Shown: one piece after another, positions 43,061 through 62,364 of the stretch
How the letters are laid out: each line of letters starts with the position of its first letter
Position numbering within the stretch: position 1 is the stretch's first letter
The notes under the pieces: model-generated
Seen by the model: only the letters and a program-made list of their open reading frames with translations
What the model was told of the DNA's origin: nothing
The model's database searches: none
Translations under genes and position numbers: made by a program
Assembly (NCBI RefSeq): GCF_009936275.1
Contig: NZ_AP019797.1
Coordinates: forward strand, 2,029,890-2,093,889
From: Rhodothermus marinus
Lineage (GTDB): Bacteria; Bacteroidota; Rhodothermia; Rhodothermales; Rhodothermaceae
Length of the DNA stretch: 64,000 nt
Direction of reading: 5' to 3'

Positions 43061-46000
43061 TGGAATATCCCAAAAAGGTGCGATTAAAACCGAGGTCTTC
43101 CTCGAGGAAGGCTGGCGCTTCTCGCTATTTCAATACCAAAAAGGTGCGATTAAAACAAATCGCCGGCCTTCCAGTAATCAGAAGAGGGCGTTTATTTCAA
43201 TACCAAAAAGGTGCGATTAAAACCGTTTGTCGAGGATGGGATAATTTTCGCCGAGAAATATTTCAATACCAAAAAGGTGCGATTAAAACCAAGCTCGACC
43301 GCACGGCCGCCTTTGTGCGTGAGCATTTCAATACCAAAAAGGTGCGATTAAAACGCGACGGACGGGAGTGGTCCCCGCCTCGTGGAGAATTTCAATACCA
43401 AAAAGGTGCGATTAAAACTTTCGGCTACGGCCGAAATGCGCTTCTCCACCTCATATTTCAATACCAAAAAGGTGCGATTAAAACATCTGTGGATCGTCGA
43501 CTCTGAAATATCTGTACCGGATTTCAATACCAAAAAGGTGCGATTAAAACCTTCGCACTTCTATCTCAAAGTCGCGCCTCAAATTCATTTCAATACCAAA
43601 AAGGTGCGATTAAAACATAAGTTGTTCGTCTATCCCAATAACGGAAGTAGAAATTTCAATACCAAAAAGGTGCGATTAAAACAGGTATTGCCGCACCGTC
43701 ATTCGCCGGCAAACTTTGATTTCAATACCAAAAAGGTGCGATTAAAACGCCTTGCGCCACCGGGGGCGGACCGGTCTCGTTCAATTTCAATACCAAAAAG
43801 GTGCGATTAAAACAGGCGCTGCCGCGCCAGTACTGGGCGACCGGTCGCGATTTCAATACCAAAAAGGTGCGATTAAAACTGTAAGCCGCCAGGGCGAAGT
43901 GCCGTGGCGGTTTGCCATTTCAATACCAAAAAGGTGCGATTAAAACCGGAGCATTACACCGTGTTCGCGTGGTATTCGCCCGATTTCAATACCAAAAAGG
44001 TGCGATTAAAACAAGAGTCGCCGCGCCCGCTCCAGGCCCGGGTCCTCCATTTCAATACCAAAAAGGTGCGATTAAAACCGCGCTTTGCGCCACGACCAGC
44101 CATACAGGCGCTGCAATTTCAATACCAAAAAGGTGCGATTAAAACCTGCAGGCCGTCCGGCGAGATCGGTATCCTTCCAGACATTTCAATACCAAAAAGG
44201 TGCGATTAAAACTCCTCGTCTGTGACGTCGCCGCCACGCTCTTCAAAGTATTTCAATACCAAAAAGGTGCGATTAAAACTCGCCGGTTCGATCTTGCCTT
44301 CCTTAATGGCCGCCATTTCAATACCAAAAAGGTGCGATTAAAACGCGCGGTCGGTAAAGCAGGACGGCTTCGATGCGCTATTTCAATACCAAAAAGGTGC
44401 GATTAAAACCAGATCAGCAGCCGGGCGCGCCGACCGGCCTTACGCATTTCAATACCAAAAAGGTGCGATTAAAACGAGCGCGTAGACACGCCGCGCTTCC
44501 GGCTTACAATCATTTCAATACCAAAAAGGTGCGATTAAAACTTGGAATCACTGTAATCATATCCCCAATCGCCCTTGTATTTCAATACCAAAAAGGTGCG
44601 ATTAAAACCCAAGACGCTCAAGCGCATGATTGACATGTACCTGCGATTTCAATACCAAAAAGGTGCGATTAAAACCTCGGCAAAGCCCGGCGCGCGGACG
44701 TCGGCAAGCGTATTTCAATACCAAAAAGGTGCGATTAAAACCTCGTAGCGCAAACGTCACACCATCGCCGCCCCACGAAGATTTCAATACCAAAAAGGTG
44801 CGATTAAAACCGACCGACGCGCTTGTCGAGCAGCTTCAGCGCCACCATTTCAATACCAAAAAGGTGCGATTAAAACCCGCCTCCCTCTCTTTCTCTTCGC
44901 GCGTCTTCACGCATTTCAATACCAAAAAGGTGCGATTAAAACTTCAGTTCGGACGACTCACGATCGCGTCCGGCATCGATTTCAATACCAAAAAGGTGCG
45001 ATTAAAACCGCTGGAGCGCTACAAGAAGACGCTGGCCGATCCGGGGATTTCAATACCAAAAAGGTGCGATTAAAACCCGCGCCCGCCGTGCTGTGGATCG
45101 ACGAGATTGAGAATTTCAATACCAAAAAGGTGCGATTAAAACACGACTGCTACGACTCGTTCACCACCCACGCCATAAATTTCAATACCAAAAAGGTGCG
45201 ATTAAAACAGGAACGATGAAGCCATGAAAGCACATCTCTGCAGGATTTCAATACCAAAAAGGTGCGATTAAAACACCGCATACTCCGTATCATAGCGTCC
45301 CTCAATAGCTTATTTCAATACCAAAAAGGTGCGATTAAAACGCGGCCGGGCGGCCCGGTGATCTGCTCCAGGCCCGTCATTTCAATACCAAAAAGGTGCG
45401 ATTAAAACTGCTTCGCTTTGCACTGGGCTACCTGCCCCGCATCGATTTCAATACCAAAAAGGTGCGATTAAAACAAGCTGAAGGGCTGGCGCTACCCGTG
45501 CGTCCTCCGAAATTTCAATACCAAAAAGGTGCGATTAAAACCCCGACGTAGTCCCCGTCGGAGTCCGCGTTGAGCACGATTTCAATACCAAAAAGGTGCG
45601 ATTAAAACTCGATTTCCTGCTCGATGACTTCCTGGCGCGTGCGGCCGATTTCAATACCAAAAAGGTGCGATTAAAACATAGACGATCTGAGCCGGGCGGG
45701 CCGGACGATCCCCATTTCAATACCAAAAAGGTGCGATTAAAACCGTCCACCGAACGCGTGGAGATCGCCCGGATTCACATCATTTCAATACCAAAAAGGT
45801 GCGATTAAAACTGCTGATAACGTAGCCTGGGAGCGGGCTTTTGACGCATTTCAATACCAAAAAGGTGCGATTAAAACCGTGTTCCTATCAGACCTACAGC
45901 GCATCCTGCAGAACCATTTCAATACCAAAAAGGTGCGATTAAAACCAGCTGAGATGGCAATGGTGACCAGGCCGCTCAGCGTGATTTCAATACCAAAAAG

Positions 46001-48013
46001 GTGCGATTAAAACCTGAGGGAGATCCAACCCATTGAGGAGAAGAAGGAGATTTCAATACCAAAAAGGTGCGATTAAAACGGAGGCCGGAGATCGCCTCAT
46101 CATCTACCATCCCGAATTTCAATACCAAAAAGGTGCGATTAAAACACACGACGGTGCGGCTTGCCGCGCGCGCCTGCTGCAATTTCAATACCAAAAAGGT
46201 GCGATTAAAACTGAGGACATTGCCGGAAGCATTCAAAACAAACACAAATTTCAATACCAAAAAGGTGCGATTAAAACTGCTGAGTCTGCTGCGTCTGCAT
46301 GACTGTGCTGTGGTTATTTCAATACCAAAAAGGTGCGATTAAAACCCTTGCAATGCAGCCATCTACCAACCCAACCAAACAAAATTTCAATACCAAAAAG
46401 GTGCGATTAAAACATGGCTGGGAAGCGCCTACGACAGCGAGTTCGAAATTTCAATACCAAAAAGGTGCGATTAAAACGCCGCCCGCGCGGCATCTCGTGG
46501 TGGATTTTGAATCATTTCAATACCAAAAAGGTGCGATTAAAACTGAACGAGGTGAAGCGACTGGCCGCCTTTCTGGAGGAGATTTCAATACCAAAAAGGT
46601 GCGATTAAAACACGGGAGATCTCGCGTCAGAACGGCTCTCATGGCTTCATTTCAATACCAAAAAGGTGCGATTAAAACCTCTCCGGGCGTACCCTTACGA
46701 CGAACTGGACTTGAAGATTTCAATACCAAAAAGGTGCGATTAAAACGAGGCTGGCGGGGATGGATGAAGAGGTGACGGTACATTTCAATACCAAAAAGGT
46801 GCGATTAAAACACGAAGACGAGATCCATAATCCGTAAACGGTCAACGCGTGATTTCAATACCAAAAAGGTGCGATTAAAACTTCGATGAGCACGCCGCCG
46901 AAATCGAACTTGCGGTGAATTTCAATACCAAAAAGGTGCGATTAAAACCGCGTGCTCAATGCCGATCCTATTGCCTACATCAAGAATTTCAATACCAAAA
47001 AGGTGCGATTAAAACCGCGCTTTCTGCTGCTGTCCCGGTATCTGTCTGAGCAATTTCAATACCAAAAAGGTGCGATTAAAACCGGGCGACGGCGTGCCGC
47101 GTATGTTGAAATGACTCACATTTCAATACCAAAAAGGTGCGATTAAAACTCCGTAATCGTCAGCTTACCGCCATACCTGACGCAATTTCAATACCAAAAA
47201 GGTGCGATTAAAACGGGCGCCGTGCCGTCGCCTGCAGCCACGACCGTCAATTTCAATACCAAAAAGGTGCGATTAAAACAAACAGAACTCACCGCACCGC
47301 CCGCGCACGTTGTTGTGATTTCAATACCAAAAAGGTGCGATTAAAACAGAGAAGGGTGATGGGTTATAACCGCGGTAGATGATATTTCAATACCAAAAAG
47401 GTGCGATTAAAACGCGGAATACGTGCGTAGCCGCCCGCGCGGCATCTCGATTTCAATACCAAAAAGGTGCGATTAAAACAATCTCTCTGGCCTACCGAGA
47501 CGGGGATCGTGTCTGGTATTTCAATACCAAAAAGGTGCGATTAAAACATCTGTTCGAGGCGCCCGTATCTGTTGAGCTTGAAGAATTTCAATACCAAAAA
47601 GGTGCGATTAAAACTGAAGGAATTGTGAAGAACGCGTGAAAAATATGTGAATTTCAATACCAAAAAGGTGCGATTAAAACGAGACCCGCGAGGGTCGCGT
47701 CTATCTGCACGTAACCATTTCAATACCAAAAAGGTGCGATTAAAACTGGTGGATTTTAGAAACAAACGTGTTCGACGACTAACATTTCAATACCAAAAAG
47801 GTGCGATTAAAACGCGTGTGGTGCGCGTTGGCTGCACCACCGCCCGCGATTTCAATACCAAAAAGGTGCGATTAAAACCTGATCGAGGATGCGAAAAATG
47901 CGATGGCTGATTAATATTTCAATACCAAAAAGGTGCGATTAAAACGCCGATCTTTGCCGCCGCGATGATCAAGGCGCATCCGGATTTCAATACCAAAAAG
48001 GTGCGATTAAAAC
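43061..48013 (-). CRISPR. CRISPR array: 75 repeats of 30 bp, 74 spacers
   Basis: The repeat, read on the minus strand, starts GTTTTAATCGCACC and ends GGTATTGAAAT, the form used by type I-B and III systems, which would leave ATTGAAAT as the 5' tag of the crRNA. I counted 75 copies from 43061 to 48013; spacers are 34-39 bases, mostly 36. Only the leftmost copy (43061-43090, starting TGGAATATCC on the plus strand) is degenerate, which marks the old, trailer end and places the leader at 48014 onward. The array is therefore transcribed leftward. Two spacers (46478-46513 and 47414-47449) share 20 bases. Confidence 0.99.
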
Positions 48014-48274
48014 CCCGGCCTTTCAAAGAGCAGAACCGGCTTCTGGAGGGTATTATAAGCGATTTGATCCGGAATGTCAAGTCCCCGGAGTCGTCGACCT
48101 CCGGTTACCCCTGAAACCCCGGGGGTCCGACGACTTTTATTAAACTGCTAAAAATAAAAGAAATAAAACAACAGATTTTCTTTTACCTATCATTTGCGTT
48201 GCCGAATTCAGTTCGTTATCTTGGGGTCGACGACGCCAGTCAGGGCACTTCTCACGTAATTACAGGAGGTTACG
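48014..48274 (-). promoter_or_regulatory. CRISPR leader and cas2 upstream region
   Basis: It holds an AT-rich core at about 48136-48190, where the array promoter should lie. The core is flanked by GTCGTCGACC at 48090-48099 and its exact reverse complement GGTCGACGAC at 48225-48234, with a similar GTCCGACGAC at 48125-48134. A GC-rich patch with CCCCGGGGG lies near 48117-48125. Cas1-Cas2 would insert new spacers at the 48013/48014 border. Confidence 0.75.
48194..48222 (+). promoter_or_regulatory. Candidate promoter of cas2
   Basis: TTGCGT (48194-48199), 17 bases, then TATCTT (48217-48222). A good Shine-Dalgarno AGGAGGT (48264-48270) precedes the cas2 ATG. Confidence 0.4.
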
Positions 48275-48541
48275 ATGCCGTACTACATTGCCGTTTACGA
48301 TGTCAACGTGCGGCGCGTCGCCAAAATGCTTAAGCTCTTCCGGCGCTATCTGACCTGGGTGCAGCGCTCCGTCTTCGAGGGCGAGTTGACCGAAGCGCAG
48401 TTTCAGCGCCTGCAGCACGAAGCCGGCCGGCTCATGAACCCCGACGAAGACGTGGTCATCTTTTACGAGCTGCGCGACGTCCGTTACAGCCGGCGTCTGG
48501 TGCTGGGTACTGAACAGGGCCACCGCGACCGCTTCCTATGA
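48275..48541 (+). CDS. cas2: CRISPR-associated endonuclease Cas2
   Basis: An 88-residue ferredoxin-fold protein, the dimeric scaffold of the Cas1-Cas2 spacer integrase. The N-terminal strand YYIAVYDVN bears the usual Asp, followed by RRVAKMLKLFRRYLTWVQRSVFEG, and the C-terminal strand is VVIFYEL. It is preceded by AGGAGGT. It is the only cas gene on the plus strand, reading away from the leader, and its stop lies one base from the stop of the convergent cas1 gene. Confidence 0.97.
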   Translation: MPYYIAVYDVNVRRVAKMLKLFRRYLTWVQRSVFEGELTEAQFQRLQHEAGRLMNPDEDVVIFYELRDVRYSRRLVLGTEQGHRDRFL

Positions 48542-48542
48542 A

Positions 48543-49625
48543 TCACCACCACATGTGCAGCCCGCGGTAAGGCTCGTTCTTCGGGTCCAGCAAATGCCGG
48601 ATCAGCTTGTAGCACTCCAGGCGAATCAAGCGTTCGTAACTGACGTGTCGCTCCAGACGACGGTGATAGACCGTCTGGCGCAGGCGTTCATCCCAGTGCC
48701 GGACGAAAATCCGTCGCCCTTCCTCCTTCAGGTAGACCCCGCCCAGCCGTTCCTCGAAATGACGCGGCGTGATCTCACCGGTCTTGACCAGCCGAAAAAT
48801 GGCTCGATCTACCAGAATCGGCTTGAAAATCTCGGACAGGTCCAGCGCCAACGAAAAGCGCCGCGCACCCGGTTCATGCAGGTACGAAATGGTCGGATCC
48901 AGCGCCGTGCGATGAATCTGACGAATGGTGGTCGTGTAGCACAGGCTGTTGCCGAAGCTGATCAGCGCGTTGATCTCGTTGGAAGGCGGCCGCCGCTCGC
49001 GCTTTTCAAAAACAAAGGCTTCGCCGGGACCGTCGGCCAGAATGGACGGCCAGGCGCTGTAGTAGGCCTCCCGGCTGCGCCCTTCGATGCCCATCAGTTC
49101 GGGAATCTTTTCGGCGGACCTGAGCTGCGTGCGTTCCTGCTCGATGGTGGCGATCGCTTCGGCGACGGCTTCCCGACGCTCCCCTTCCAGGCGGTTGACG
49201 TAGTAGCGCAGCACACGGAGCAGGTTGTAGGTGGCCGCCTCCACGATGGCCCGGGCCAGATAACGCCGCCGCTTTGGTCGCACGTAGTGCAGCACCTGCT
49301 CGATGCGCAGCCGCCCGCTGTGCAGGTAATCGCGCGGGATGTAGGTGCCCGTGTAGTTGCCGTAGTAGTCGTAGAAGTGCGCCGGGATGTCGTGCCGCGC
49401 CAGAAACGTGAGCAGCTTCGAGTTCAGATCGACCTCGCCGAAAAAGTACAGGCTTTCGACCTGTTCGACCGGAAACGGGATGCGTTCGCCGGTGGGTGTG
49501 CCCGAGGGTTCGCCTGTCTCATCCTGATCGTCCGGGATGCGTTCGCCGGCGGCTTTTTCGAAAAAGAGCGTGTTCTGTCGCCGGCGCAGGCGTCCGCTGG
49601 AGAAGATGTAATAGGGCCGCTTCAT
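48543..49625 (-). CDS. cas1: CRISPR-associated integrase Cas1
   Basis: A 360-residue Cas1 of the type I-B/III kind. The metal residues are the Glu in ELMGIEGRSREAYY (~178), the His in YLHEPGARRFSLALDL (~248) and the Asp/Glu just after it in LDLSEIFKP. The N-terminal beta domain contains an unusual insertion at ~25-50 (AAGERIPDDQDETGEPSG then TPTGERIP), coded by a 17-bp direct repeat at 49476-49492 and 49533-49549. The start ATG 49625-49623 overlaps the stop of the DnaQ-like exonuclease gene. It converges on cas2. Confidence 0.97.
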   Translation of the reverse strand: MKRPYYIFSSGRLRRRQNTLFFEKAAGERIPDDQDETGEPSGTPTGERIPFPVEQVESLYFFGEVDLNSKLLTFLARHDIPAHFYDYYGNYTGTYIPRDYLHSGRLRIEQVLHYVRPKRRRYLARAIVEAATYNLLRVLRYYVNRLEGERREAVAEAIATIEQERTQLRSAEKIPELMGIEGRSREAYYSAWPSILADGPGEAFVFEKRERRPPSNEINALISFGNSLCYTTTIRQIHRTALDPTISYLHEPGARRFSLALDLSEIFKPILVDRAIFRLVKTGEITPRHFEERLGGVYLKEEGRRIFVRHWDERLRQTVYHRRLERHVSYERLIRLECYKLIRHLLDPKNEPYRGLHMWW

Positions 49626-50311
49626 GAGCTCGGTGGCTGACAGTCGCGTGGAAGCAGCGGTAGCAGGCGCGCAAAGCAGGCCATCGTGGCCACAACGTCG
49701 GCTTCGCAGTAGCGACGCACGCCTTCGATCCCTTCGGTCTCCAGGAGGTGCTGCACCAGACTTCCGTCGCCGTGCTCCTTGGGGCTCGGAATGTGCAGCA
49801 GCGCGCACAGATCGGCCAGCCCCAGGTTGATGCCCGCAAACAGGTTGAACAGGTCGCAATGGGGATATTGCTTGTAGGGATAATCATCCAGCAGGCCGCA
49901 TGCCACGGGCAGCAGGCCGTGGTGGAGCGTGCGGGCCAGCAGAAAGGGCACGTCGAAGCGCTTGCCGTTGAACGTGATCCACAGGATTTTCTCGCCAAGA
50001 TCTACAAACTGCTGCACGTCGCGCCAGAAGCGCGCGAGCATGGCGCCTTCGTCGTCGGGCGTAGGCGCCAGATAGGAGTGCGGCGGGTTGGGCCGGAAGG
50101 GATCGTCGACGGCCCGTTGCACCGAAATGCACACGATCCAGCTCAGCAGGGGATGCAGGCTGGCGGCCCGCTGCGCCAGTGCTTCCTCGTGCGCTTCGGG
50201 TTCACGCTGGCGCAGGAAGTGCACCTCGCGCGCCAGGCGGGCCTGCTGCTGCGCCGAATACCCGTCGGCCGGCAGCGGACACGTCTCAATATCCAGCGCA
50301 AGGTAATGCAT
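49622..50311 (-). CDS. DnaQ-like DEDDy 3'-5' exonuclease coupled to cas1
   Basis: A 229-residue exonuclease of the RNase H-like PolB-exonuclease group. The DEDDy residues are visible: Asp7 and Glu9 in LALDIET, Asp120 in TFNGKRFDVPFL, and Tyr201/Asp205 in YCEADV. Start ATG 50311 places the first catalytic strand at the N-terminus. Its stop overlaps the cas1 start codon (ATGA), so the two proteins are made from one message and probably in equal amounts. DnaQ-type exonucleases trim prespacers in some CRISPR systems, and a Cas2-DnaQ fusion is known from type I-E, so a role in spacer processing is a strong inference. General DNA repair is the alternative. Confidence 0.88.
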   Translation of the reverse strand: MHYLALDIETCPLPADGYSAQQQARLAREVHFLRQREPEAHEEALAQRAASLHPLLSWIVCISVQRAVDDPFRPNPPHSYLAPTPDDEGAMLARFWRDVQQFVDLGEKILWITFNGKRFDVPFLLARTLHHGLLPVACGLLDDYPYKQYPHCDLFNLFAGINLGLADLCALLHIPSPKEHGDGSLVQHLLETEGIEGVRRYCEADVVATMACFARLLPLLPRDCQPPSS

Positions 50312-50462: not shown

Positions 50463-51527
50463 TTAAACCCTGTTTTCAACCTCAAAGCGTCGCCAATTCT
50501 GATAATTGCTTCGCCTCACTCCCCTTTGAATGGCCCTTTCATACGACTGATCACTGTGCCGCGTCAATTCGCAAACACGGATACCTCCCTGTTCGTCTTC
50601 AAAATAGAAAAGGCGCTCGTCACGATGTCCTTTTGGAAAAACAAAGCAATCGCAATTATGTACCTGATCAGATCCGCTGCGTCGAAGTTCTTGCAGGCGT
50701 AGTTTTGCCAGCGTACGGTCAAAAAGAGCCTTCACAGCTGGTTCTGCCTGTTCATAGGTGCGCCAAGCTGAGTCAGAAAGCCATACAGGCGTCCCTTGCG
50801 CCTGCTCCAGTCGATTCTGGTAAGCTTCGTAAAAAGCTTCACCTGTAGGCGACAGGAAGGTATATCCTTCCTCTTCTGTCAGCAGCAAATGGATTTCCTG
50901 AGTTCTGGGCAGCCCACGCAATCGATTCTCAACCTCCCTGGTATCTCTGTAATCTGCATGAATCCATTCAAAAAATTCTTCATACTCGGCCAGCAAAGAA
51001 TAATCCCATCCGATCGGTGTTGGAGGCATTTCAATAATGTCTCGAAAGGCTTCATGAATGTAGTACACGGGCACATCAAACAGCAGTCCTACCAGGGTAG
51101 CATAGGCAATTTCCGCCTTGAAGCCACCGGTCGCATTGATCAGCACCTCTCGATTTTGCTTTCGCTCTCTTCGGATAAGTTCGGTCAGCGTCGCTACCAG
51201 AGAACGTAACCCTCTCATCTTGAAGCGACGCTCGGCATAGGTAAGATCCTGGATTTCAAGTGATTCTGCCTGATACCCTTCGCTATCGTAATAACGTCTC
51301 AGGGCTTCGGCACAGACGTGCCCCTCTTCTGTCTGAGAATGGAGGAAAATAAGCTTGTCTCCTTCCTGAAGCAGTCGAGAGAGGGAATTTGTCTCTGCAC
51401 TGGCCTGCTCTGGCGAGGAGTGCCTGAGGTAATTGGCAATCTCTTGGTCATTCAACTCCTGTTTTTTGAACTCCCGCCGAGCGTTAGTCAGTAGCGAGGT
51501 TCCTACCGTAATCAGCAGCGTTCGCAT
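50463..51527 (-). CDS. CARF-domain effector with RelE-like C-terminus (candidate Cami1-type ribonuclease)
   Basis: A 354-residue protein. Residues ~1-170 form a CARF domain of the APE2256 type (LLITVGTSLLTNA at the start, INATGGFKAEIAYATL for the ligand-binding loop, FDVPVYYIHE). A middle winged-helix-like part follows. The last ~85 residues (CFVFPKGHRDERLFYFED, then IRVCELTRHSDQSYERA) resemble RelE mRNA interferases. Cyclic oligoadenylate made by the Cas10 in this operon should bind the CARF domain and activate the nuclease. The DNA is visibly richer in A/T than its neighbours. The start ATG 51527 begins at the CARF strand; Csm6/Csx1 HEPN or PD-D/ExK motifs were not seen. Confidence 0.82.
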   Translation of the reverse strand: MRTLLITVGTSLLTNARREFKKQELNDQEIANYLRHSSPEQASAETNSLSRLLQEGDKLIFLHSQTEEGHVCAEALRRYYDSEGYQAESLEIQDLTYAERRFKMRGLRSLVATLTELIRRERKQNREVLINATGGFKAEIAYATLVGLLFDVPVYYIHEAFRDIIEMPPTPIGWDYSLLAEYEEFFEWIHADYRDTREVENRLRGLPRTQEIHLLLTEEEGYTFLSPTGEAFYEAYQNRLEQAQGTPVWLSDSAWRTYEQAEPAVKALFDRTLAKLRLQELRRSGSDQVHNCDCFVFPKGHRDERLFYFEDEQGGIRVCELTRHSDQSYERAIQRGVRRSNYQNWRRFEVENRV

Positions 51528-51537
51528 AGCAGAATAT

Positions 51538-52716
51538 TCATCTGGACTTCCACAACCCGGAAAGAGACACCTGGCGGATCGTGCCATCTTTTGCCCGTTG
51601 GCTCACGGTCACCCAGATGAAGGTGCCTGGCCGAAAGCTTTCAAGATTACGCGCGCCGGTACAGGGAATAACCCGGTCGGCATAACCCGCTACCAGCAAG
51701 CGAACCTTTATCGGGCGCTGCCTGTTGTCCACAACTTCGGCCGGAATGCGCTCTTCTTGCTTCCGAGGCAGTTCTTTGAGCATCTCAGGGCGATCAGGCT
51801 CCAGACCGGTGTTCGAGGAGGCGGACTCTGTAGCCTCTTTATCGGAGCTACTCCGCGTTTCTCTCTGGCATTCCCTCCAGAGCCCGTATCCCGCCACCGT
51901 CTTTGCTCCAATGCCCATTTTCGTGAGCGCGCGGATAAGCCACTTCTGAGCCTGAGCCGCCAGTTTTTCCTCACGCGAGGCTACAGCAAAGAGAAATGCG
52001 CTCCCCGGGCCGATGGTAAGAAAGAAGACAGGCACAGGATTATGATAATCCGCCGGGGGGGCCGTCCCCTGGTAATACGGGGCATAGTGCGGATTCATCA
52101 CGTCGAGTTCCAGAGTCAGGTTTGCAGAATTGGCCGGAATCGCATCAAAGAAAATGACTTTTCCGGCCTGAGCTTTAGGTGGACTTTTACCGAAGACCTC
52201 TGCAAAAGTAGGGTCGTTTTCGTCTTTGCCTTCTATGAGTTTGGCATACGCTCGGGCCACGCCTTTGAGCGCGCTGCCCGGAATAACGGGAAAGCCGTAG
52301 ATCCGGTGCAGGCGAATGCTGGTCTCCAAGACGCTTTCAGCACCCAGACCAACGATAACGCGACTGGCAGCACACAAGGTGAACATTTGGACGATGTAAT
52401 TCTGCGCTCTTAAGGCGTCTGTCATGCGGTCCCACCGGTTTCTATAAGCTGAAAGCAACTGGCAAAGCTCCGGAAGGGTGAAAGACCTGGGAATCCGCTG
52501 GCGCTTGTCCGAGGCTTCTGTGCGCTTGAGCTCGCCACGTGGTTTCTGCCATTCGGTGAAATGGTCTAGCCACAAACCTGGATTGAGACAGGTCTGAAGG
52601 CCGCTGACCTGATCTGCCACTTCCGGCGGTAGGGGAAAACGCCAGATTCTCTCCTCAGACGATCCTCGGTAGTCTGGCCTTCGTGGCCCTCTGTGAGAAT
52701 GACGAGGCTTCGGCAT
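51538..52716 (-). CDS. cmr6: Type III-B RAMP protein Cmr6 with C-terminal extension
   Basis: A 392-residue subunit at the crRNA 3' end of the Cmr complex. The Cmr6 core is seen in GLGAESVLETSIRLHRIYG, PVIPGSALKGVARAYAK and the Gly-rich loop MGIGAKTVAGYGLW. Typical Cmr6 ends shortly after that loop (about residue 290); here a charged linker and a further ~70 residues follow (RQRPIKVRLLVAGYADRVI ... GTFIWVTVSQRAK), with a beta pattern suggesting an OB/S1-like RNA-binding domain. It is separated from cmr5 by one base. Confidence 0.9.
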   Translation of the reverse strand: MPKPRHSHRGPRRPDYRGSSEERIWRFPLPPEVADQVSGLQTCLNPGLWLDHFTEWQKPRGELKRTEASDKRQRIPRSFTLPELCQLLSAYRNRWDRMTDALRAQNYIVQMFTLCAASRVIVGLGAESVLETSIRLHRIYGFPVIPGSALKGVARAYAKLIEGKDENDPTFAEVFGKSPPKAQAGKVIFFDAIPANSANLTLELDVMNPHYAPYYQGTAPPADYHNPVPVFFLTIGPGSAFLFAVASREEKLAAQAQKWLIRALTKMGIGAKTVAGYGLWRECQRETRSSSDKEATESASSNTGLEPDRPEMLKELPRKQEERIPAEVVDNRQRPIKVRLLVAGYADRVIPCTGARNLESFRPGTFIWVTVSQRAKDGTIRQVSLSGLWKSR

Positions 52717-52717
52717 A

Positions 52718-53140
52718 TCAGTCCTCCGGCAGTTCGGCTTCGGCGAAGCGCTTGAGCCAGGTCAAAAAAGCCAGTGCCTCCGTTGTCGCTCTACGGTAGG
52801 CAACGCTGTCGTTCTCAAGCACCCATTGGAGCAGGTCTCCATTACTGGCTGTCGGGCTCGGAGCCACTTGACTCACGACCCAGTTGGAGAGATGGCGGAA
52901 GAGTACCGTATGCTCATTGGCAGGGTCGTTTTTGCCTTTTGCCTTGAGAAACGCCAGCGTCTGTCCCAAGCCGTTCGTGAGGACCAGCATCGGGACTTTG
53001 CGGGCAAGAGAATTGTACTTTTTCTTGAAGCTCTCAGGATCTTCCAGATTCTGGGCCTGGCTCAATACCTCCTGCACGCACGTCCACGCCCGTTCAGCCC
53101 GCTTCTGTTCCAGGGTTTTCTGCAGGGACTTTGTGCTCAT
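52718..53140 (-). CDS. cmr5: Type III-B small subunit Cmr5
   Basis: A 140-residue all-helical protein that lines the inner filament of the Cmr complex. The helical pattern and the segment PMLVLTNGLGQTLAFLKAKG are typical of Cmr5, as is the N-terminal QKRAERAWTCVQEVLS. The ATG overlaps the cmr4 stop codon. Confidence 0.94.
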   Translation of the reverse strand: MSTKSLQKTLEQKRAERAWTCVQEVLSQAQNLEDPESFKKKYNSLARKVPMLVLTNGLGQTLAFLKAKGKNDPANEHTVLFRHLSNWVVSQVAPSPTASNGDLLQWVLENDSVAYRRATTEALAFLTWLKRFAEAELPED

Positions 53141-54105
53141 GGCTGACCTCCCGTTTGGGTCCCACTCGTTGCCTGAGCCTGGCCTTGCCCTTCTACAAAG
53201 CGCACCTTCACGATGCCCCGACCCACCGTAGCATCGCCGCCCAGTTGGAGGCGTTTGCCGTCTACGGCTTCCCTTACGAATTCCAGAATCTTCTCAACTC
53301 GATCATTTGCTTGTTTCCAATCATCGGGCAACTCATCGTCTTTCACTCGTGGCTTGCTGGCAAAGAGTGTCGCGTACAGGAGCGTCTCGGAGGGCAGATG
53401 CTCCTCGGTCCAGAGGGCGCCCCGCTCCACCGTCTTTTTAGTGTCATCAATCCGCACCCGGGCAATGACCTCTGTAGAGAGCTGGACGAAGTCCCGAAAG
53501 GCGTTTTCGGGCAGGATCACCAAGCGCTTTTCTAAGGACTCGCGCCAGTATGTGTACTCATCCCCCTGAGGCATGGCCTTGTCTTGAAACCATTTTGCGA
53601 TGTCTGCTACGGTGTTGTTCTCCTGCGCCGTAAAGGCAAATTCTTCTAACACCACTCTTCCGTTTGCTACCACCCCACTTCCATTGGCTACGAATGCGGT
53701 CCCGTCGTCTGTCGGTGCGGGTCCGATCGGCTCCCAGTTCACCTGAAGCCCTGCCATTTCCGCTTCCCGCTTGAAGCGGGCCAGGACGTTCTGGCTCGTG
53801 ACCCAGGCAAAGACGCCCGCAAGCGAGCGCACCGGAAAGAGCAGAACGCGGGCGTCCCCCACCGAAAGCGCTCCGGCGTGATCGGACGCGCGCTGTGTCT
53901 CCGGGCCGAAGACAATCTCCACCTTTTGCGTGTCGCCTGCTGCCACGTCCCGCAGGCATCCTTTCAGACCGGAGGCCTGGATCATGGGGTAGCCCGTGGT
54001 GCGCTCCCGCTGAATGGGTAGATCCACGATACCCAGGCTCGTGCCGCTTCCCGCATGGAGCGGTGTTTCAGTGTACAGAAAGAGTATTGCTGCACGGTCA
54101 AACAT
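53137..54105 (-). CDS. cmr4: Type III-B backbone nuclease Cmr4
   Basis: A 322-residue RAMP (Cas7-like) that repeats along the crRNA and cuts target RNA. The N-terminal strand FLYTETPLHAGSG is followed by the catalytic Asp28 in GIVDLPIQRE, then ASGLKGCLRD and the Gly-rich loop GGDATVGRGIVKVR. The start ATG 54105 has a near-perfect AAGGAGGG seven bases upstream. With Asp28 intact, target RNA cleavage at six-base intervals is expected. Confidence 0.94.
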   Translation of the reverse strand: MFDRAAILFLYTETPLHAGSGTSLGIVDLPIQRERTTGYPMIQASGLKGCLRDVAAGDTQKVEIVFGPETQRASDHAGALSVGDARVLLFPVRSLAGVFAWVTSQNVLARFKREAEMAGLQVNWEPIGPAPTDDGTAFVANGSGVVANGRVVLEEFAFTAQENNTVADIAKWFQDKAMPQGDEYTYWRESLEKRLVILPENAFRDFVQLSTEVIARVRIDDTKKTVERGALWTEEHLPSETLLYATLFASKPRVKDDELPDDWKQANDRVEKILEFVREAVDGKRLQLGGDATVGRGIVKVRFVEGQGQAQATSGTQTGGQP

Positions 54106-54116
54106 AGGTCCCTCCT

Positions 54117-55244
54117 TTATGCATAATTCCATTTACCAATGGCACAAGCGCCAAAACCAATCTGGCCGTAGTTCCCTTCCCCGGAAGGGGTTTCCGTGAA
54201 GGGCCTTCCGGTCCAGGAAGCCGTGCCGTCGTGCTCAAAGAAGTACACGCTTCCGGCCGGTACAAACCGGCGCATGGGCTTCTGGAAAGCTCCCCTTCGC
54301 CGTCTGTCGTCCACATACGCTCCGCCGATCGGCTGATAGCGAGGAATGATGGCCGAAACCAGCCGAACGGAGCCGTAAAAGAACTGCCCCCAGTTTCCGC
54401 CCTGTGGCTGCCAGCCGCCGGAAAACCATGCAGGAGTCAAGAGCACAACCTTGAAGCGATCTGGCAGAGGATTCGGTGGGGTCGGAATCAGGTCGGGTGC
54501 AGCCTGCTGCACTTCGTAATAGGCTGCTCGGGCCTCTCCACCGAGCTGGAGCAAGCCCGTTTTCCCTCCCAGGTCGGTCTCGGAGATGCCTTCGACATCC
54601 ACCCAGAAAGCTACACCTTCCTTGAGCCGGAGGAATTCGGCCAGGTAGAGATACGACTCGCGCACGGTTCTACGCGCTCGCTCGATGGCAATACCAAACC
54701 GATGCTCCCGCTCCACAAACTCCGATTCGTCATACACTTTTCCCGGAGCCACTCCTCCGAGGTAACGCCCAAGCTCGTCCTCGCTGATCCAACCCCGCAC
54801 TTCTTCCAGGCGTTCAGGCGTTCGGAGCCACGGTGTCTGGAGGCCAGCGGGTAGGTTGGACTGCCAGGGAGATTTTTTGAGAGGCTGCAAAAGCGCATAG
54901 GAGCCGCTCAGGCGCACTATATCGGCTGGTAAGGGGAAGTAGCGCACCCAGCGGTCGTTTTCCTGATTGGCTAAGAAAGGCCCCCACAGCTGGAGCTTAC
55001 CGTAACTATCCTTCGGGGTGCCAATCAGCTCTTGGAGCTTCTGGGCTTCCTGGGTTTTGCCGCTGACGTAGGCCGCAGGGCTGACCCCGCTGGAAAAGAG
55101 CACCCGTGCCCGGATGGCGCCCTGGATCGTGAAGGGTGTCGGAGGGAAAAGACTCCGGGCTCGAATATCCGTGCCCGCCGAGAAGGGCTTGCCATCCCGG
55201 AAAAGCAGCACATCGTGGGGCTGGATGACCAAAGCGAAACTCAT
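54117..55244 (-). CDS. cmr3: Type III-B RAMP Cmr3
   Basis: A 375-residue subunit that binds the 5' tag of the crRNA and contacts Cas10. The N-terminus IQPHDVLLFRDGKPFSAG and the segment FPPTPFTIQGAIRARVL are diagnostic. The Gly-rich loop near the C-terminus reads YGQIGFGACAIG. Its ATG overlaps the Cas10 stop. Confidence 0.93.
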   Translation of the reverse strand: MSFALVIQPHDVLLFRDGKPFSAGTDIRARSLFPPTPFTIQGAIRARVLFSSGVSPAAYVSGKTQEAQKLQELIGTPKDSYGKLQLWGPFLANQENDRWVRYFPLPADIVRLSGSYALLQPLKKSPWQSNLPAGLQTPWLRTPERLEEVRGWISEDELGRYLGGVAPGKVYDESEFVEREHRFGIAIERARRTVRESYLYLAEFLRLKEGVAFWVDVEGISETDLGGKTGLLQLGGEARAAYYEVQQAAPDLIPTPPNPLPDRFKVVLLTPAWFSGGWQPQGGNWGQFFYGSVRLVSAIIPRYQPIGGAYVDDRRRRGAFQKPMRRFVPAGSVYFFEHDGTASWTGRPFTETPSGEGNYGQIGFGACAIGKWNYA

Positions 55245-58108
55245 ACTTCTCCTCCCCTGGCGATGAAGCTACAGACCAGAAGCCAGCGACTCATCTCACT
55301 AAAACCTTTAGGCGATTCTTTGTCGGCTTGGCAGGGGTCCGGATTTTGCTGAGGCTGTTCCATCGCCCGGACCCAGTCCACAAGCTTCTTTGAGAGCTCC
55401 TCTGCTTGAGCCTCCTTCTCTTCCCGGGAGAGTTCCTGCTCGGCCTGTCTCTTGAGCAGGCGTTTGAGCTCGGCGCGCTGGGCTTCTTCAGGGAGTGCCT
55501 CCAATGCTGCCGCTTCTGCCTGGACTGTATAGGGCCATTTGCCGCTGATCTGGCCTTCCCGCAGGCGCTTTGTCACGTCTATCAGGAACTTCACGACGTC
55601 CGGCATGCCTTCATAACTCCAGTTTGTGCCTACGCTCACCGTCTCGCCGGAGCGTTTGAGGACTTCCACGGCCAGGGCATTGCGGCCGTATTGGCGCTTG
55701 GCGGCCTGCTCGGCCCGACGCGCGGCCTGCAGTACCAGATCCAGCGGCTGGAGATGATGGGCAAAGACCAGCCCGATAGAAGCCGTCGCCTGGGGACCCA
55801 TGGTGAGAAAAATCTCCTTTCCCCACTCCACCCACTCCACATAGCCGGAGACGGACTCCCCCAGACAGACCTGCAGGCTGCCATTCTCAAACCGGATATG
55901 CCCGCTGAAGGCGGCGCGCAGTTCCCGGGCGACCGCCAGCGCATCTTCCAGCGGCACCAGGGCCAACACGTCGTCCCCGCCGGCATAGATGAGACGACCC
56001 GGAGAGCGTTCCTCCACGATGTGGGGCACAAGCCTCAGGGCAAAGCGCCCTAGGGACTGGGAAATCGCCGCATGCACCGCCGACGTGATAAGGCGCCTGG
56101 TCTGCAGAAGGGGGTGCCAGTTAGCGTCCTCCTCAAGCTGCTCTCGCACCTCGGGATGCAGAATATCCCCGAAGGTAGCCAGCCCTTCGTGGGTACCGCT
56201 GAGCCAGCGCCCCATGTGGTCGCCGTCCATGTAGAGGAGGGCGTAATACTTGCTGGGCCTGGCGCCAACTGCTTGATAAAGGGCCTGAAGCGTTTCTATA
56301 GCTTTTCGGATATCTCCGGGGTTGGACGTAGCTCCGGCTTCCTTCAAGTGCTCCTTGGTCCAGGATTCGACATGGAGCCATTCTCCATCGATTTTTAGCA
56401 ACTTTTTCGCCAGCTCCGCCTCCGCCCCGGTCAGGCTTTGTGTCTGCGCTTCCAGATACGGCATGGCCCCTTGGGCGACGGTTGCGAGCTGAGGATGGGC
56501 TATGTTTAGAAAGTCTTTCAGGGCCTGCTGGACCGCTGGGCGTCCTTTCTGCAAAGCCTCCAGTACCCGCTTTTTGAAGGGCGCCGCGGCGATTTCGCTG
56601 GTCGAGGGGAAGCCGCCTCGAAGTCCGAACTCCTGCTCCAGTACCTCTCGCTGAACGAAGCGTTTGACCGTGCAGACGGCGCAGAGGCGCTCCTTGCCCT
56701 CGGGCTTGACTTCGTGGCGGCCTCGTGCACGCAGCTCCTTTGCTACGTGATCCCAGAAAGCCCTGCTATCCAGTTTTTCTGAGCGCAGAGCGGCTCGCTG
56801 CCCGCACTGGGTGCACTTGTCGCCGGTTTCCTCCGCCTGCTCGAAGTTCCGCAGGTTTTTCCGGGCGTTGAAAGCCCGATCGGCCAGCTCGTAGAGGAGG
56901 CTCCACACCGTGCCCCAGTTGGGGTCGTATTGTCCGCTCTTATGCAGGGTTTCGTAAACCCGGCGGAATTCCCAATCCTCACCTTCCGGGGGCTTGCAAA
57001 GCTGCTCGTAAAGCTCTTTCCCCGCCTTTGCCTGCGCTGTCCCGGGGGGCTGGTCGTCTCCCGGCCAGGGAAAAACCACCCAGTAGATTTCCAGCAGGCC
57101 TTGAATCTGATTATCCCAGAGGCCCTTCGTCTGGTCATCGGCAGGCAGGATGCTTGTGCTCGTGAGGGCGTTATAAACCTCCTGCGCCAGGCGTTTCCAT
57201 TCTTCCCGGACGGCTTTTTCCGCTTTCTGAGCCGCTTCGGAAGCTTCCTTCGCAGGCAAAAGGGCCAGGAAGCGGTTGGGGAAGGTAGGGCGGCCGATCT
57301 CCTCCAGCGCGGGCTGACAGGGCAGCCCATAAGCTTTGTGTAGCCAGTGATCGCACAGCGGCTGCCCCCGAAGCGATGGGAAGACGACCACGTCCGGCCC
57401 GAACTCGTCGGCCAGGCTCTCCATGGCCTTCCAGGAGAGGTAGGATAAAATCCAGCTCCCCATCCAGAGGTCCTGGGTGCGCCGGGCCGCTGCGATGAAC
57501 TCCTGAACCGGGCCGATGGAGAAAACCAGAAACGCCGGATTCGGCAGAGCGTCTGCGATCGCCACTGAAATCGAGAGATGCTGTTCTAACGGATGATCAG
57601 GCTGGCGGGTATCGGCCGGCAGCAGGCGCATCCAGCCCTTAAGGCTCGCCTTGTGGGCAAGCTCCTCATACAGAAGCCGCCAGATGTAAAGGTAGAGGCA
57701 CTTCTCCTTATCAGGCTGCGTGGTCAGCTGGTGAACCCAGGGCTGGAGGATGCGCTGAGCGGCTTCCTCCTGTACTTCACTATCCAGGGCTTGTAGGTCG
57801 CCAGCAGGGAGCTGTACCCGGTGAGCTCGGGCACCTGCTGCGAGGGGATGCGTAAGGAGAGGTGCCACCTGGTCCCAGTATGCGGTGGCCCCTTTAGGGA
57901 AGTTTACCCGATCGGCCGCTGAGGCGATATGGTCGGCTTTCGTTGCCCGGTCGCTTTCATGTGCGTCAGCCGAACGGCCCAGCGCGATTTGTTGCAAGGC
58001 CTTGGCGAGCTGTGCATGAGGAGTATGAGGCACCGAACGCAAGACCAACGCCTTGCCCGGCGGATCGTGCAAGAAAGCGACGATTTTGCGGGTCCAACGG
58101 GTTACCAT
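55241..58108 (-). CDS. cas10: Type III-B Cas10 (Cmr2) with HD nuclease and GGDD cyclase
   Basis: A 955-residue signature subunit. The N-terminal HD motif is in VAFLHDPPGK (His14, Asp15), so target-activated DNase activity is likely. A zinc site of two CxxC pairs appears as CTQCG near ~431 and CAVC near ~473. The first palm domain follows, then the second with YAGGDDVLAL near residue 709, the active site for cyclic oligoadenylate synthesis. I chose ATG 58108, which overlaps the cmr1 stop by seven bases; the upstream frame to 58201 lies inside cmr1. Cyclic oligoadenylate would activate the CARF protein. Confidence 0.96.
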   Translation of the reverse strand: MVTRWTRKIVAFLHDPPGKALVLRSVPHTPHAQLAKALQQIALGRSADAHESDRATKADHIASAADRVNFPKGATAYWDQVAPLLTHPLAAGARAHRVQLPAGDLQALDSEVQEEAAQRILQPWVHQLTTQPDKEKCLYLYIWRLLYEELAHKASLKGWMRLLPADTRQPDHPLEQHLSISVAIADALPNPAFLVFSIGPVQEFIAAARRTQDLWMGSWILSYLSWKAMESLADEFGPDVVVFPSLRGQPLCDHWLHKAYGLPCQPALEEIGRPTFPNRFLALLPAKEASEAAQKAEKAVREEWKRLAQEVYNALTSTSILPADDQTKGLWDNQIQGLLEIYWVVFPWPGDDQPPGTAQAKAGKELYEQLCKPPEGEDWEFRRVYETLHKSGQYDPNWGTVWSLLYELADRAFNARKNLRNFEQAEETGDKCTQCGQRAALRSEKLDSRAFWDHVAKELRARGRHEVKPEGKERLCAVCTVKRFVQREVLEQEFGLRGGFPSTSEIAAAPFKKRVLEALQKGRPAVQQALKDFLNIAHPQLATVAQGAMPYLEAQTQSLTGAEAELAKKLLKIDGEWLHVESWTKEHLKEAGATSNPGDIRKAIETLQALYQAVGARPSKYYALLYMDGDHMGRWLSGTHEGLATFGDILHPEVREQLEEDANWHPLLQTRRLITSAVHAAISQSLGRFALRLVPHIVEERSPGRLIYAGGDDVLALVPLEDALAVARELRAAFSGHIRFENGSLQVCLGESVSGYVEWVEWGKEIFLTMGPQATASIGLVFAHHLQPLDLVLQAARRAEQAAKRQYGRNALAVEVLKRSGETVSVGTNWSYEGMPDVVKFLIDVTKRLREGQISGKWPYTVQAEAAALEALPEEAQRAELKRLLKRQAEQELSREEKEAQAEELSKKLVDWVRAMEQPQQNPDPCQADKESPKGFSEMSRWLLVCSFIARGGEV

Positions 58109-59049
58109 GCGGCAGTTCCTCGCATTATCCAAGTGCCTTGCCACTTCTGACAGCAATCGCTCAGGAAGTCTTGGAGCTTCCTCCAGTTTGGAGAACTCCA
58201 CGCAAAACGACTCCGGAAAGCTGTCATGAGAAGATGATACTTGTTCCCAATCTTTACAATGCGCAAATGCAAAGGAGAGGCTTGCCGTCCAGCGCTACCA
58301 GCGAAACCGAAAACTCGGTCGTCTCGATAAGGATGGGACCGAAGTAGTCTCCAAAAAGCCATCATCGCTTTTTCCCAGGTGGCGAATGGGTATTTGCAGA
58401 AAAGAATCTGCGTGTGATCGCTGTGCAAGACCGGGAAATCAGGCGGTATGCGGAAAGTGCCTGGAGCAATTTTCAATGTGCTTATGAGGTTCCGGGCTTG
58501 ATCTTGGGCTTGCTGGATAACCTGCCGTAGGGTTGTCTCAAGTTCACTCGCGTCTTTGTAAGCCTCTGGTGTAAATAGGAAGCTTTCCACCTCGTTTTGG
58601 AGCCGAAGGGTACCAAAGCCTCGCCTCGAGCGCTTCCCCAGGCCGCCGAGTAATAGCCAAAGTGCAGTGACAGAGAGCACAATAGGGCTTACCTGGGTAT
58701 GAGGTGGGCGAGGGATAAGCTCCAAGCTGAAAGCCTGATCAGGCTGTATGCCCATGAAAGTGAATTTCTTTTCGGGATTGTGAAGCAGGGGCCGATAGGA
58801 ATCGAACTGAACCTCGCCACCTATCCGCACCACGACGGGGGAGGCGCCGGTATCGGTGCTTCCGAAGACGGCGGCTTCGGCCTTCCGGAGGGCATTGAGA
58901 TCTTTATCGCCGATTACGCCGCCCAAAAGGGCTCGAAGCCAGAAGCGGAGCGCACCCCGGATGGAAGCGGCTCGAAGCTCCGGCTTGCCGCGTGGGTCAG
59001 CACCGGCCAGAAACAAGGGCGTTACGGTTTCCAGTCGGACGGTCAGCAT
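58102..59049 (-). CDS. cmr1: Type III-B RAMP Cmr1
   Basis: A 315-residue subunit located at the crRNA 3' end of the complex. The N-terminal RAMP strand VRLETVTPLFLAGAD, the helix ELRAASIRGALRFWLRALLG and the Gly-rich loop LGGLGKRSRRGFGTL are diagnostic for Cmr1. It is the first Cmr gene and begins 33 bases after cas4, so the two gene sets probably share a transcript. Confidence 0.94.
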   Translation of the reverse strand: MLTVRLETVTPLFLAGADPRGKPELRAASIRGALRFWLRALLGGVIGDKDLNALRKAEAAVFGSTDTGASPVVVRIGGEVQFDSYRPLLHNPEKKFTFMGIQPDQAFSLELIPRPPHTQVSPIVLSVTALWLLLGGLGKRSRRGFGTLRLQNEVESFLFTPEAYKDASELETTLRQVIQQAQDQARNLISTLKIAPGTFRIPPDFPVLHSDHTQILFCKYPFATWEKAMMAFWRLLRSHPYRDDRVFGFAGSAGRQASPLHLRIVKIGNKYHLLMTAFRSRFAWSSPNWRKLQDFLSDCCQKWQGTWIMRGTAAW

Positions 59050-59082: not shown

Positions 59083-59625
59083 TCACCCAAAACATAACTC
59101 CTCGTACGCACATTTTTTGCAGAAGCGGCGGTTTTCGAGGCGGGACGGTGGTGTGGGTCGGGCGGCCGTCTGATGCAGCTCCTGCACGAGCGTGCGCAAC
59201 CGGGCTTCGTCGTCTGCGGTGAGCGTGACGGTTTCGGTGCGGCGCTGGCGGGGAAAGTTGAGCTGGCCTTCGAAGGGACGACCGTCGGGCCGCGTCACAC
59301 CCCGGAGCTTGAGCAACCACAGGTAGAAGCGGAGTTGCCAGCGGTGCGCTTCGAGGCCGGAGGGACTCCGTTTCGTCTCGTGGAGTACGCCGTCGCGCAG
59401 CTCGGCCCAGTCGATGCGTCCGGCCAGCCGGAGCCCTTCGGGGCCTTCCACTTCCACATTCACGTGCTGCAGCTCGTCGGCATAGGTGGTCTCGTCCAGC
59501 AGGCGTCCCAGCGCCACGGCCTCCGACTCCTGCTCCATCCAGAGCCCGTGCACGGCCAGCCACGCCTTGCGCCGACAGAGCACAAAGTAGTTCACCAGCG
59601 TGCCAGTGATGGAAAGTTCAGGCAT
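59083..59625 (-). CDS. cas4: CRISPR-associated exonuclease Cas4
   Basis: A 180-residue RecB-like nuclease. The Fe-S cluster ligands are Cys17 (VLCRRKAWL) and three C-terminal cysteines in FCKKCAYEELC. The PD-(D/E)XK core shows the Asp in AGRIDWAELRDG, HETKRS, and the QxxxY element in WQLRFYLWLL. Cas4 trims prespacers and fixes their PAM orientation before Cas1-Cas2 integration. It follows cas3 by six bases. The locus therefore encodes two different trimming nucleases, Cas4 here and the DnaQ-like protein at 49622. Confidence 0.96.
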   Translation of the reverse strand: MPELSITGTLVNYFVLCRRKAWLAVHGLWMEQESEAVALGRLLDETTYADELQHVNVEVEGPEGLRLAGRIDWAELRDGVLHETKRSPSGLEAHRWQLRFYLWLLKLRGVTRPDGRPFEGQLNFPRQRRTETVTLTADDEARLRTLVQELHQTAARPTPPSRLENRRFCKKCAYEELCFG

Positions 59626-59631
59626 AGGGAT

Positions 59632-61812
59632 TTACAGTATAGAAGCTTCCACTCGGGTCTGCCAGTCGTCGGTGAGCCGAAGTCCGCGTTCTGCGTCGTA
59701 GGGAAGGCCGGTCTGGCGCACCTGCAGGTCTGCGAGTTCCTCGAAAGCGTCCGGTGCCTTGATCAGCCAGTACACCGGCACCGGGACCAGCAGCTCCGGA
59801 AGACGCCAGCCTTCCCCCTGTTCTTTGAGCTGCAGCGCTTCCTGAACATAGCACTGAGGCAATACATCGACCGAAATCATACCCCGTCGCGTCGTAAAGC
59901 GCGCACGCAACTGCTCGTCGGTAAGGTCGATCGTGTAGCATCCCAGAATCCGCTGCAGCTCATCCAGCGTCTGGCGCCCTTCCTGCAGTTCCTGCTGCCA
60001 GGCTTCGGTATGCAGCACGTACTCGTACAGTCGATGGGTCGCCCGAGCCAGCTCTTCATCCGTGGGCTCTGCGGGAAGTGTCTGCAGGATCTCCAGACTC
60101 CGCTCCAGCACGTCCTGACCGTAAATGCGGCGCGCGCCTTCAGACCAGTTCGTGTAAATCAGAACCGGTGCCGACGGGTTGTCTCCGCGACGGTTCACCC
60201 GGCCCATTCGCTGCACCAGGGCGTCGATCGGTGCCACTTCGGTCAGCAGTACGTCGTAGGAAATGTCCAGACTGACCTCTACGACCTGGGTAGCAATAAA
60301 AATTGAGCCTGGCCGAGGCCGGGCCACTCGCTCCTCCTTGTGCTGACGATCACGAAAGGCAAAACGCGCATGCAACAGGGTACAGGGCAATCCGGTAGCC
60401 TGCAGTTGCTCGTAAAGTGCCTGCGCATCGGCCACGGTATTGGCCACCACAAGCACCCGTCGCCCCTGATGGGCAAAATTTCGGGCCTGTTGCATCCCCT
60501 CTTCCAACAGGCTTCCCTTCCGCAGCTGAACGTGATGCCGCCGCCGCTGCCAGAGATCCTCTTCTGCTTCGACCAGATATCCCTCAGGGAAAAGCTGCAG
60601 CAACGACTCCGGAAGCGTTGCGCTGGCCAGCGCCAGCCGTGCCGGCAGTTCGCGCCTGAGTGCCTCCAGCAACAACCCCAGCGTGTACGGTTCATAGGCA
60701 TGGATTTCGTCCAGTACGATGGTAGCACAGCGGGCAAGCGTCCGACGTTCTTCCCAGTGGCGTCCATGCAGATGGGCCAGGAGGTACTGATCCAGCGTAG
60801 CGACGACCACGGGTCTGGCGAAAACAGATCCGAACAGCCGCGCATCCAGTGGGTCTTCATCTGATTCAATGCGCAGCATATAGGCGGCGCGCCCGTGCGC
60901 AAGGGCCACGGCATCGTCGCCGTAGATGCGACGCAGCCGGCGCCACATGGCGTTCGTGGTTGCCTGCGTGGGTAGCAGATAGATCAGGCGTTCCGTGTCG
61001 CCTGCCCAGAGAAGCAGGGCCTCGGTTTTGCCTGTGCCTGTGGGAGCACGAAGCCAGAGCACCTTTTCAGTTGAGACACTTTGCGCCTTTCTCTGGAATT
61101 CCCGCAGGGGGCCTTCGAGCTGCCGGGCGTACCGCCCTATAGCACTCGCGCCATTCCGCAAAAACAGGATGTGGGGGTCTGGCTGTTGTGCCGACGCCAG
61201 CCAGTCGGCCAGGTGCAGCGTGGCTTTAACCCGGGCGAAACGCTCAACCTGCTGCAACCGGAGCAACCCGCGTAAAGAGTGTCGGGCTGCTCCCAGCTCC
61301 AGAACACTTTCCAGTAGATCTGCCGGCGCACTTTGAAGCAGGCCCTGAAGACTGTGCCAGAATTCAGAAACACTCGGAAGATCGCCTATCCCATATCGCG
61401 CCAGCAAATCCCAGAGCTCTGTCAAGAACGCATACAGCGACTCATGAAAGGTTACCCGACTTCCCCGATAGCCGAGATACAATCGGGCTCCCAGTGGGGA
61501 GTGGTGCGTGAGTACGGCTCCCGTAGCTTCCAGTGCATGCCGGTCAGTTCCCTGTTGCTGATTGAGCAGCCCTTCGGCCAGCAAAATAAAGGGAAGGGAA
61601 GCCAGTGCATGCGGGTAGGCCTTTTTTCGCCGTCCGCGAATGTATTCCTGAAAATCTTCAGTTGCTTTTCCGACGTCGTGGAAGGCACAGGCCAGAATTA
61701 CCTTCTGACGTAGCGGCTCTGGAAGCTTGAGCCGATCGGCAAGCGTCGCACCCAGTCGGGTTACTTCGGCCAGATGATCAAGCAGCGAAACGTCTGGTTT
61801 GGCCAGTAGCAT
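59632..61812 (-). CDS. cas3: Type I helicase-nuclease Cas3 (HD fused)
   Basis: A 726-residue effector that degrades the DNA strand displaced by Cascade. An N-terminal HD nuclease (HLAEVTRLG, AFHDVGKATEDFQ, LTHHSP) is joined to a superfamily 2 helicase: Walker A APTGTGKTEALL, DEIH in VLDEIHAYEPYT, ALASATLP and motif VI QRMGRVNRRG. Full length. It lies 27 bases after the antitoxin gene and shortly before cas4. Confidence 0.96.
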   Translation of the reverse strand: MLLAKPDVSLLDHLAEVTRLGATLADRLKLPEPLRQKVILACAFHDVGKATEDFQEYIRGRRKKAYPHALASLPFILLAEGLLNQQQGTDRHALEATGAVLTHHSPLGARLYLGYRGSRVTFHESLYAFLTELWDLLARYGIGDLPSVSEFWHSLQGLLQSAPADLLESVLELGAARHSLRGLLRLQQVERFARVKATLHLADWLASAQQPDPHILFLRNGASAIGRYARQLEGPLREFQRKAQSVSTEKVLWLRAPTGTGKTEALLLWAGDTERLIYLLPTQATTNAMWRRLRRIYGDDAVALAHGRAAYMLRIESDEDPLDARLFGSVFARPVVVATLDQYLLAHLHGRHWEERRTLARCATIVLDEIHAYEPYTLGLLLEALRRELPARLALASATLPESLLQLFPEGYLVEAEEDLWQRRRHHVQLRKGSLLEEGMQQARNFAHQGRRVLVVANTVADAQALYEQLQATGLPCTLLHARFAFRDRQHKEERVARPRPGSIFIATQVVEVSLDISYDVLLTEVAPIDALVQRMGRVNRRGDNPSAPVLIYTNWSEGARRIYGQDVLERSLEILQTLPAEPTDEELARATHRLYEYVLHTEAWQQELQEGRQTLDELQRILGCYTIDLTDEQLRARFTTRRGMISVDVLPQCYVQEALQLKEQGEGWRLPELLVPVPVYWLIKAPDAFEELADLQVRQTGLPYDAERGLRLTDDWQTRVEASIL

Positions 61813-61839
61813 AGCCCATGCCTGGATCGAGCCTTCGGC

Positions 61840-62357: not shown

Positions 62358-62364
62358 TAAGCCA

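Follow-up and report, generated by a model that had tools for sequence, protein, structure and literature searches.

The CRISPR locus of Rhodothermus marinus analysed here raised the question of why an exonuclease gene is located directly in front of cas1, and whether its product could take part in spacer acquisition. Cas1-Cas2 requires 3' overhangs of set length, and host exonucleases are usually assumed to provide the trimming. The window, that is, the whole stretch of 64,000 nucleotides analysed, had been described in the first-pass annotation as containing a DnaQ-like exonuclease gene, designated exo in the following, coupled to cas1 in a I-B/III-B locus with Cas4. The composition of the locus was confirmed, cas4 and the type I-B genes cas3, cas5, and cas7b being present along with a cmr module (Table 1). 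On the minus strand, the genes are read in the order cas7b, cas5, cas3, cas4, cmr1, cmr2/cas10, cmr3, cmr4, cmr5, cmr6, CARF7-RelE, exo, and cas1, and the bases at the junction of the last two read ATGA as claimed. The genes cas1 and cas2 are arranged tail to tail with one base between them, and the array is read from the leader adjoining cas2. This leader region is common to the array and to cas2, which is read in the opposite direction (48275-48543). The same genome contains a second I-B-like locus, in which cas1 and cas2 are likewise convergent (L068 4538-5802), and a third cas1 locus (L069 7329-8906) for a protein of 525 residues, the N-terminal extension of which may be Cas4-like; an array of 25 repeats is found near it.

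Table 1. Features of the CRISPR locus, ordered by their position in the window
Feature	Position	Strand	Remarks
CRISPR array	43127..48013	-	74 identical 30-nt repeats; 73 spacers of 34-40 nt, mean 36.5
Leader between array and cas2	48014..48274	-	Perfect TTGACA-17-TATAAT at 48080-48052 (-)
cas2	48275..48541	+	88 aa; convergent with cas1
cas1 (Cas1b)	48543..49625	-	360 aa; TIGR03641, 1.3e-122, over cut-off; catalytic E, H, and D motifs present
exo stop/cas1 start overlap (ATGA)	49622..49625	-	Retained in G002, G005, and the exo remnant of G031
exo (DEDDy 3'-5' exonuclease, PF10108 family)	49622..50311	-	229 aa; start ATG, stop TGA
CARF7-RelE type III effector	50463..51587	-	Directly upstream of exo; placement not conserved in relatives
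III-B module (cmr6, cmr5, cmr4, cmr3, cmr2/cas10, cmr1)	51538..59049	-	cmr6, cmr4, and cmr2 by family matches; cmr1, cmr3, and cmr5 named by position and homology to other loci
cas4	59083..59625	-	Nuclease motif and four cysteines intact
Type I-B effector genes (cas3, cas5, cas7b)	59632..63923	-	Family matches

Pfam searches assigned the exo product to PF10108 (DNA_pol_B_exo2; E value 1e-14, 55.2 bits at a curated cut-off of 24), with a second, weaker match to PF13482 (RNase_H_2; 7.5e-6). PF10108, which corresponds to COG3298, was also matched by all ten exo homologues considered. The motifs DIETC, FNGKRFD, and YCEAD could be read in the protein, and since motif III, YCEAD, is of the tyrosine type, the protein is classified as DEDDy. 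This class, together with the visible catalytic residues, had been correctly recognised in the first-pass annotation. The conservation of these residues, on which the proposal depended, was found to be complete: D7, E9, D120, Y201, and D205 are invariant in the ten homologues. The label DnaQ-like had to be abandoned, however, because exo matches PF10108, which is of the PolB type, whereas DnaQ and the domain fused to Cas2 are DEDDh. No match to DnaQ-type models was reported at an E value of 0.01, the best matches being PF10108 and PolB exonucleases. For exo, nothing near any cut-off was obtained with NCBIfam, and PADLOC yielded zero matches. A profile built from the ten sequences had family-B DNA polymerases as its nearest solved structures, the match extending across the exonuclease domain (1e-5), and it was labelled 'DNA polymerase exonuclease subunit' by PHROGs. 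An AlphaFold2 model calculated from a three-sequence alignment reached a mean pLDDT of only 46, too low for use in a fold search. In viral contigs, neither single-sequence nor profile searches revealed relatives of exo. From its sequence, exo apparently specifies a catalytically competent DEDDy 3'-5' exonuclease resembling those of PolB, which is probably thermostable.

The arrangement of the genes was compared in seven Rhodothermus genomes, five of which contain a readable module (G000, G001, G002, G003, and G005); G004 could not be judged, its contig beginning within cas1. In all five, which belong to a single genus and are hence not independent of each other, exo directly precedes cas1, so that the coupling proposed from the window is conserved. 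The ATGA overlap is retained in G002 and G005, and a short gap is present in G001. The gene upstream of exo varies. It specifies CARF7-RelE in G000. In G002, it follows a III-A-type module and specifies a Csx1-type CARF-HEPN protein; G003 and G005 have another CARF-like gene, recognised by eye only, and G001 has cas4 in this place. When G000 and G002 were aligned, nucleotide identity was down to background at the start of exo. The constant unit of the locus is exo-cas1-cas2. Judging from dN/dS values, exo evolves under purifying selection (0.06-0.17 within the genus, next to 0.06-0.16 for cas4 and 0.03-0.08 for cas1). In the window, the interval between CARF7-RelE and exo (50312-50462) showed an identity of 0.62-0.67, with values around 0.5 further upstream; the CARF-like gene found before exo in G003 and G005 may have left its 3' end there in decayed form.

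Outside the genus, a different picture emerged. Among 245 genomes of the class, Cas1 was detected in 76 and an exo homologue in 110. Both genes occur in 25 genomes besides Rhodothermus and G031, a genome from another family of the order, and were never separated by less than about 110 kb on the same contig. In the rest of the phylum, 40 of 80 exo-positive genomes also contain Cas1, the two genes being never closer than about 170 kb. In total, none of the 65 Bacteroidota genomes with both genes has them side by side; a few cases might be concealed by contig breaks. The possibility that homologues usually lie away from cas genes, considered at the outset as an argument against the proposal, is therefore true outside the genus and does not apply within Rhodothermus. 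With no adjacent pair among these 65 genomes, the exo-cas1 pairing appears to be a lineage-specific recruitment and not a widespread cas gene. Beyond Bacteroidota, the searches covered plasmid and phage records. The plasmid-borne Cas1b most similar to that of the window (60%) was found on pSR66 of Salinibacter, where neither exo nor a recognisable remnant is present between cas4 and cas1. In a phylogenetic tree, the exo copies of Rhodothermus, including a plasmid copy, form one clade (99/97), to which the closest outside homologues, those of G072 and G018 (55-60%), are sister (95/100). The simplest account is that exo joined cas1 by one recruitment in an ancestor of Rhodothermus.

A natural loss of exo is apparently documented in G031. 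Its cas1 and cas4 are 94% and 97% identical to the genes in the window. Of exo, the last 37 codons or so remain directly after the cas4 stop codon, and the ATGA overlap onto cas1 is kept. Compared to the shorter Cas1b model, Cas1 of the window contains an N-terminal insertion (approximately ERIPDDQDETGEPSGTPTGERIPF, 49470-49550); since G031 carries it as well, it is considered unconnected to exo. The G031 array consists of 59 repeats and 58 spacers, none of which is shared with the Rhodothermus arrays examined. A comparison of spacer lengths, as suggested in the first-pass annotation, revealed no significant difference between this locus (mean 36.8, sd 1.5, n=58) and the loci with exo (mean 36.5, sd 1.1, n=130), either in location (p = 0.28) or in spread (p = 0.07); the G031 spacers may predate the loss. 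The bootstrap interval for the difference in means was -0.06 to 0.79, and that for the difference in standard deviations was -0.05 to 0.87; a wider spread of spacer lengths without exo is possible. In the second I-B-like locus of the window's genome, which has cas4-cas1 and a convergent cas2 and is devoid of exo, spacers are 37.1 nt on average (sd 1.1). Normal spacers in G031 and in this second locus indicate that exo is dispensable for arrays of normal spacer length. Searches for protospacers revealed no phage match for the array in the window or that of G031. The former was also compared to plasmids, and the two matching records look like arrays of the same repeat family, so that no protospacers were obtained for a comparison of PAMs.

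These analyses led us to propose, with a probability of about one half, that a PF10108 exonuclease was recruited into a Cas4-containing I-B adaptation operon, where it would most likely trim the 3' overhangs of prespacers, mainly at the non-PAM end. The analyses establish to which family the protein belongs, that its active site is conserved, and that the gene keeps its place in the operon, is under selection, and tracks cas1; the activity, a prespacer substrate, contact with Cas1-Cas2, and the end preference are inferred. Judging from the overlap, translational coupling would ensure that exo is produced together with Cas1. The exonuclease could then act on 3' overhangs of prespacers bound by Cas1-Cas2. 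Cas4 would hold the PAM end and cut it later, while exo would cut back the non-PAM end until it has the length at which Cas1 can join it to the array on the leader side, and orientation would be kept. The preference for the non-PAM end is suggested by published biochemistry of Cas4 and of DnaQ/ExoT and by the intact Cas4, which would be expected to occupy and later process the PAM end. In Cas4 systems, the PAM end is held by Cas4 and cut late, and the other end is trimmed otherwise, exonucleases having been proposed (PMC10504553). The first-pass annotation had envisaged Cas4 and exo as two alternative routes of 3'-end processing, which is possible, but the published biochemistry of Cas4 would fit a division of labour better. 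A substitution of exo for a dead Cas4 is ruled out, the Cas4 motifs being intact at all loci. That exo constitutes a dedicated, CRISPR-encoded trimmer of the non-PAM end beside Cas4, making the adaptation module independent of exonucleases of the host, is a more tentative suggestion, with the odds somewhat against it.

Alternatively, exo could be an exonuclease of general or mobile-element DNA metabolism that came to lie upstream of cas1, serving repair or replication and kept by virtue of the transcript it shares with cas1. Several observations would be in line with this explanation. The sister copies in G072 and G018 adjoin thiL- and ftsH-like genes (identified by eye), other relatives are located on plasmids and near integrase-like genes, and the array of G031 shows no obvious consequence of the loss of exo. 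Moreover, only one exo homologue was found in the genome of the window, which could fulfil a general role from its place in the cas locus. On the other hand, G006, which lacks cas1, has not retained exo for such a role, and the adjacency to cas1 has been maintained between species with saturated synonymous sites while other neighbours changed. We regard this explanation as less likely than trimming.

A connection to the type III module had to be considered as well. In four of the five loci, exo directly follows the CARF-type gene of this module, and it might act as an accessory nuclease in the type III response, either in the 3'-end trimming of crRNAs or in nucleic acid degradation. However, exo remains where the module switches from III-B to III-A, and two genomes dissociate exo from Cas10. 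G001 (98% complete) has cas1 and exo, the latter between cas4 and cas1, and gave no match to the Cas10 palm domain; G006 (99% complete) possesses Cas10 and neither cas1 nor exo. These two genomes indicate that exo is tied to cas1 and not to Cas10. On their basis, exo was rejected as a component of type III systems, and an accessory function in the type III response is very improbable.

Relatives of exo were also detected beside CRISPR arrays. On plasmids pRMAR01 and pRHOM17201, a homologue with 77% identity and an array are separated by about 475 bp, and cas1 is not found in the vicinity. The homologue is placed between a TnpB gene and the array (L040 20001-21690 and L039 12065-14388, respectively), which has seven repeats in one case and 15 in the other. 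pRMAR01 carries several arrays of this kind as well as a III-A system. In G428, a Salinibacter-like genome of the same order, an exo homologue precedes a seven-repeat array with a period of 61 bp by 150 bp (L064 7534-8730). The repeat is I-E-like and an integrase-like gene is close; within the 12 kb read, no cas genes of the kinds found in the window were detected. These arrangements may be due to chance, or they may be a second sign of the family working with arrays. An action of exo on the array itself, where it might remove or edit spacers once they are integrated or help to repair integration gaps, could be imagined from these array-side relatives without a nearby cas1, but the array-richness of the plasmids makes chance neighbours likely, and such an activity is the least probable of the explanations.

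Prespacer trimming by exo, the reading preferred here, has parallels in known systems. In the Cas2-DnaQ fusion of type I-E, the 'trimmer-integrase', a 3'-5' exonuclease of the DEDD superfamily is likewise encoded with Cas1-Cas2, and trimming of prespacer 3' ends has been proposed; its DEDDh active site is responsible for the initial trimming as well as for PAM removal (PMC10284694). That domain forms part of a Cas2 fusion protein, and the system has no Cas4 (PMC10284694), whereas the PolB-type DEDDy exonuclease of Rhodothermus is a separate protein, coupled to cas1, and an intact Cas4 is present. Exonucleases of the DnaQ-like DEDDh type are also described as standalone proteins, widespread as ancillary components of CRISPR systems (PMC10284694, citing Makarova 2019). 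They resemble exo in being unfused and encoded in a CRISPR locus; exo belongs to another family and has a fixed place in the adaptation block. With the PF10108/COG3298 exonucleases (PMC3985635), exo shares family and catalytic motifs, but, as outlined above, the relatives outside Rhodothermus are not found by cas1. In the literature searched, mostly papers available without subscription, a single paper mentions PF10108 or COG3298 as well as CRISPR, and it draws no link between them. The type I-G Cas4/Cas1 fusion provides another parallel, since both ends of the prespacer are processed within the adaptation module itself (PMC10504553). There, the non-PAM end is cut by the Cas1 part (PMC10504553), while in Rhodothermus a separate exonuclease would be responsible. 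Standalone exonucleases near cas genes are thus already known, and what differs here is the PolB-type family and the fixed, cas1-coupled position.

The loss in G031 and the second I-B locus without exo in the window's own genome offer ready comparison pairs for a trimming role. If the proposal is true, exo would show that CRISPR adaptation has enlisted a second family of DEDD exonucleases, in an event separate from that of DnaQ. The probable role of exo in Rhodothermus is the trimming of captured virus DNA prior to storage.
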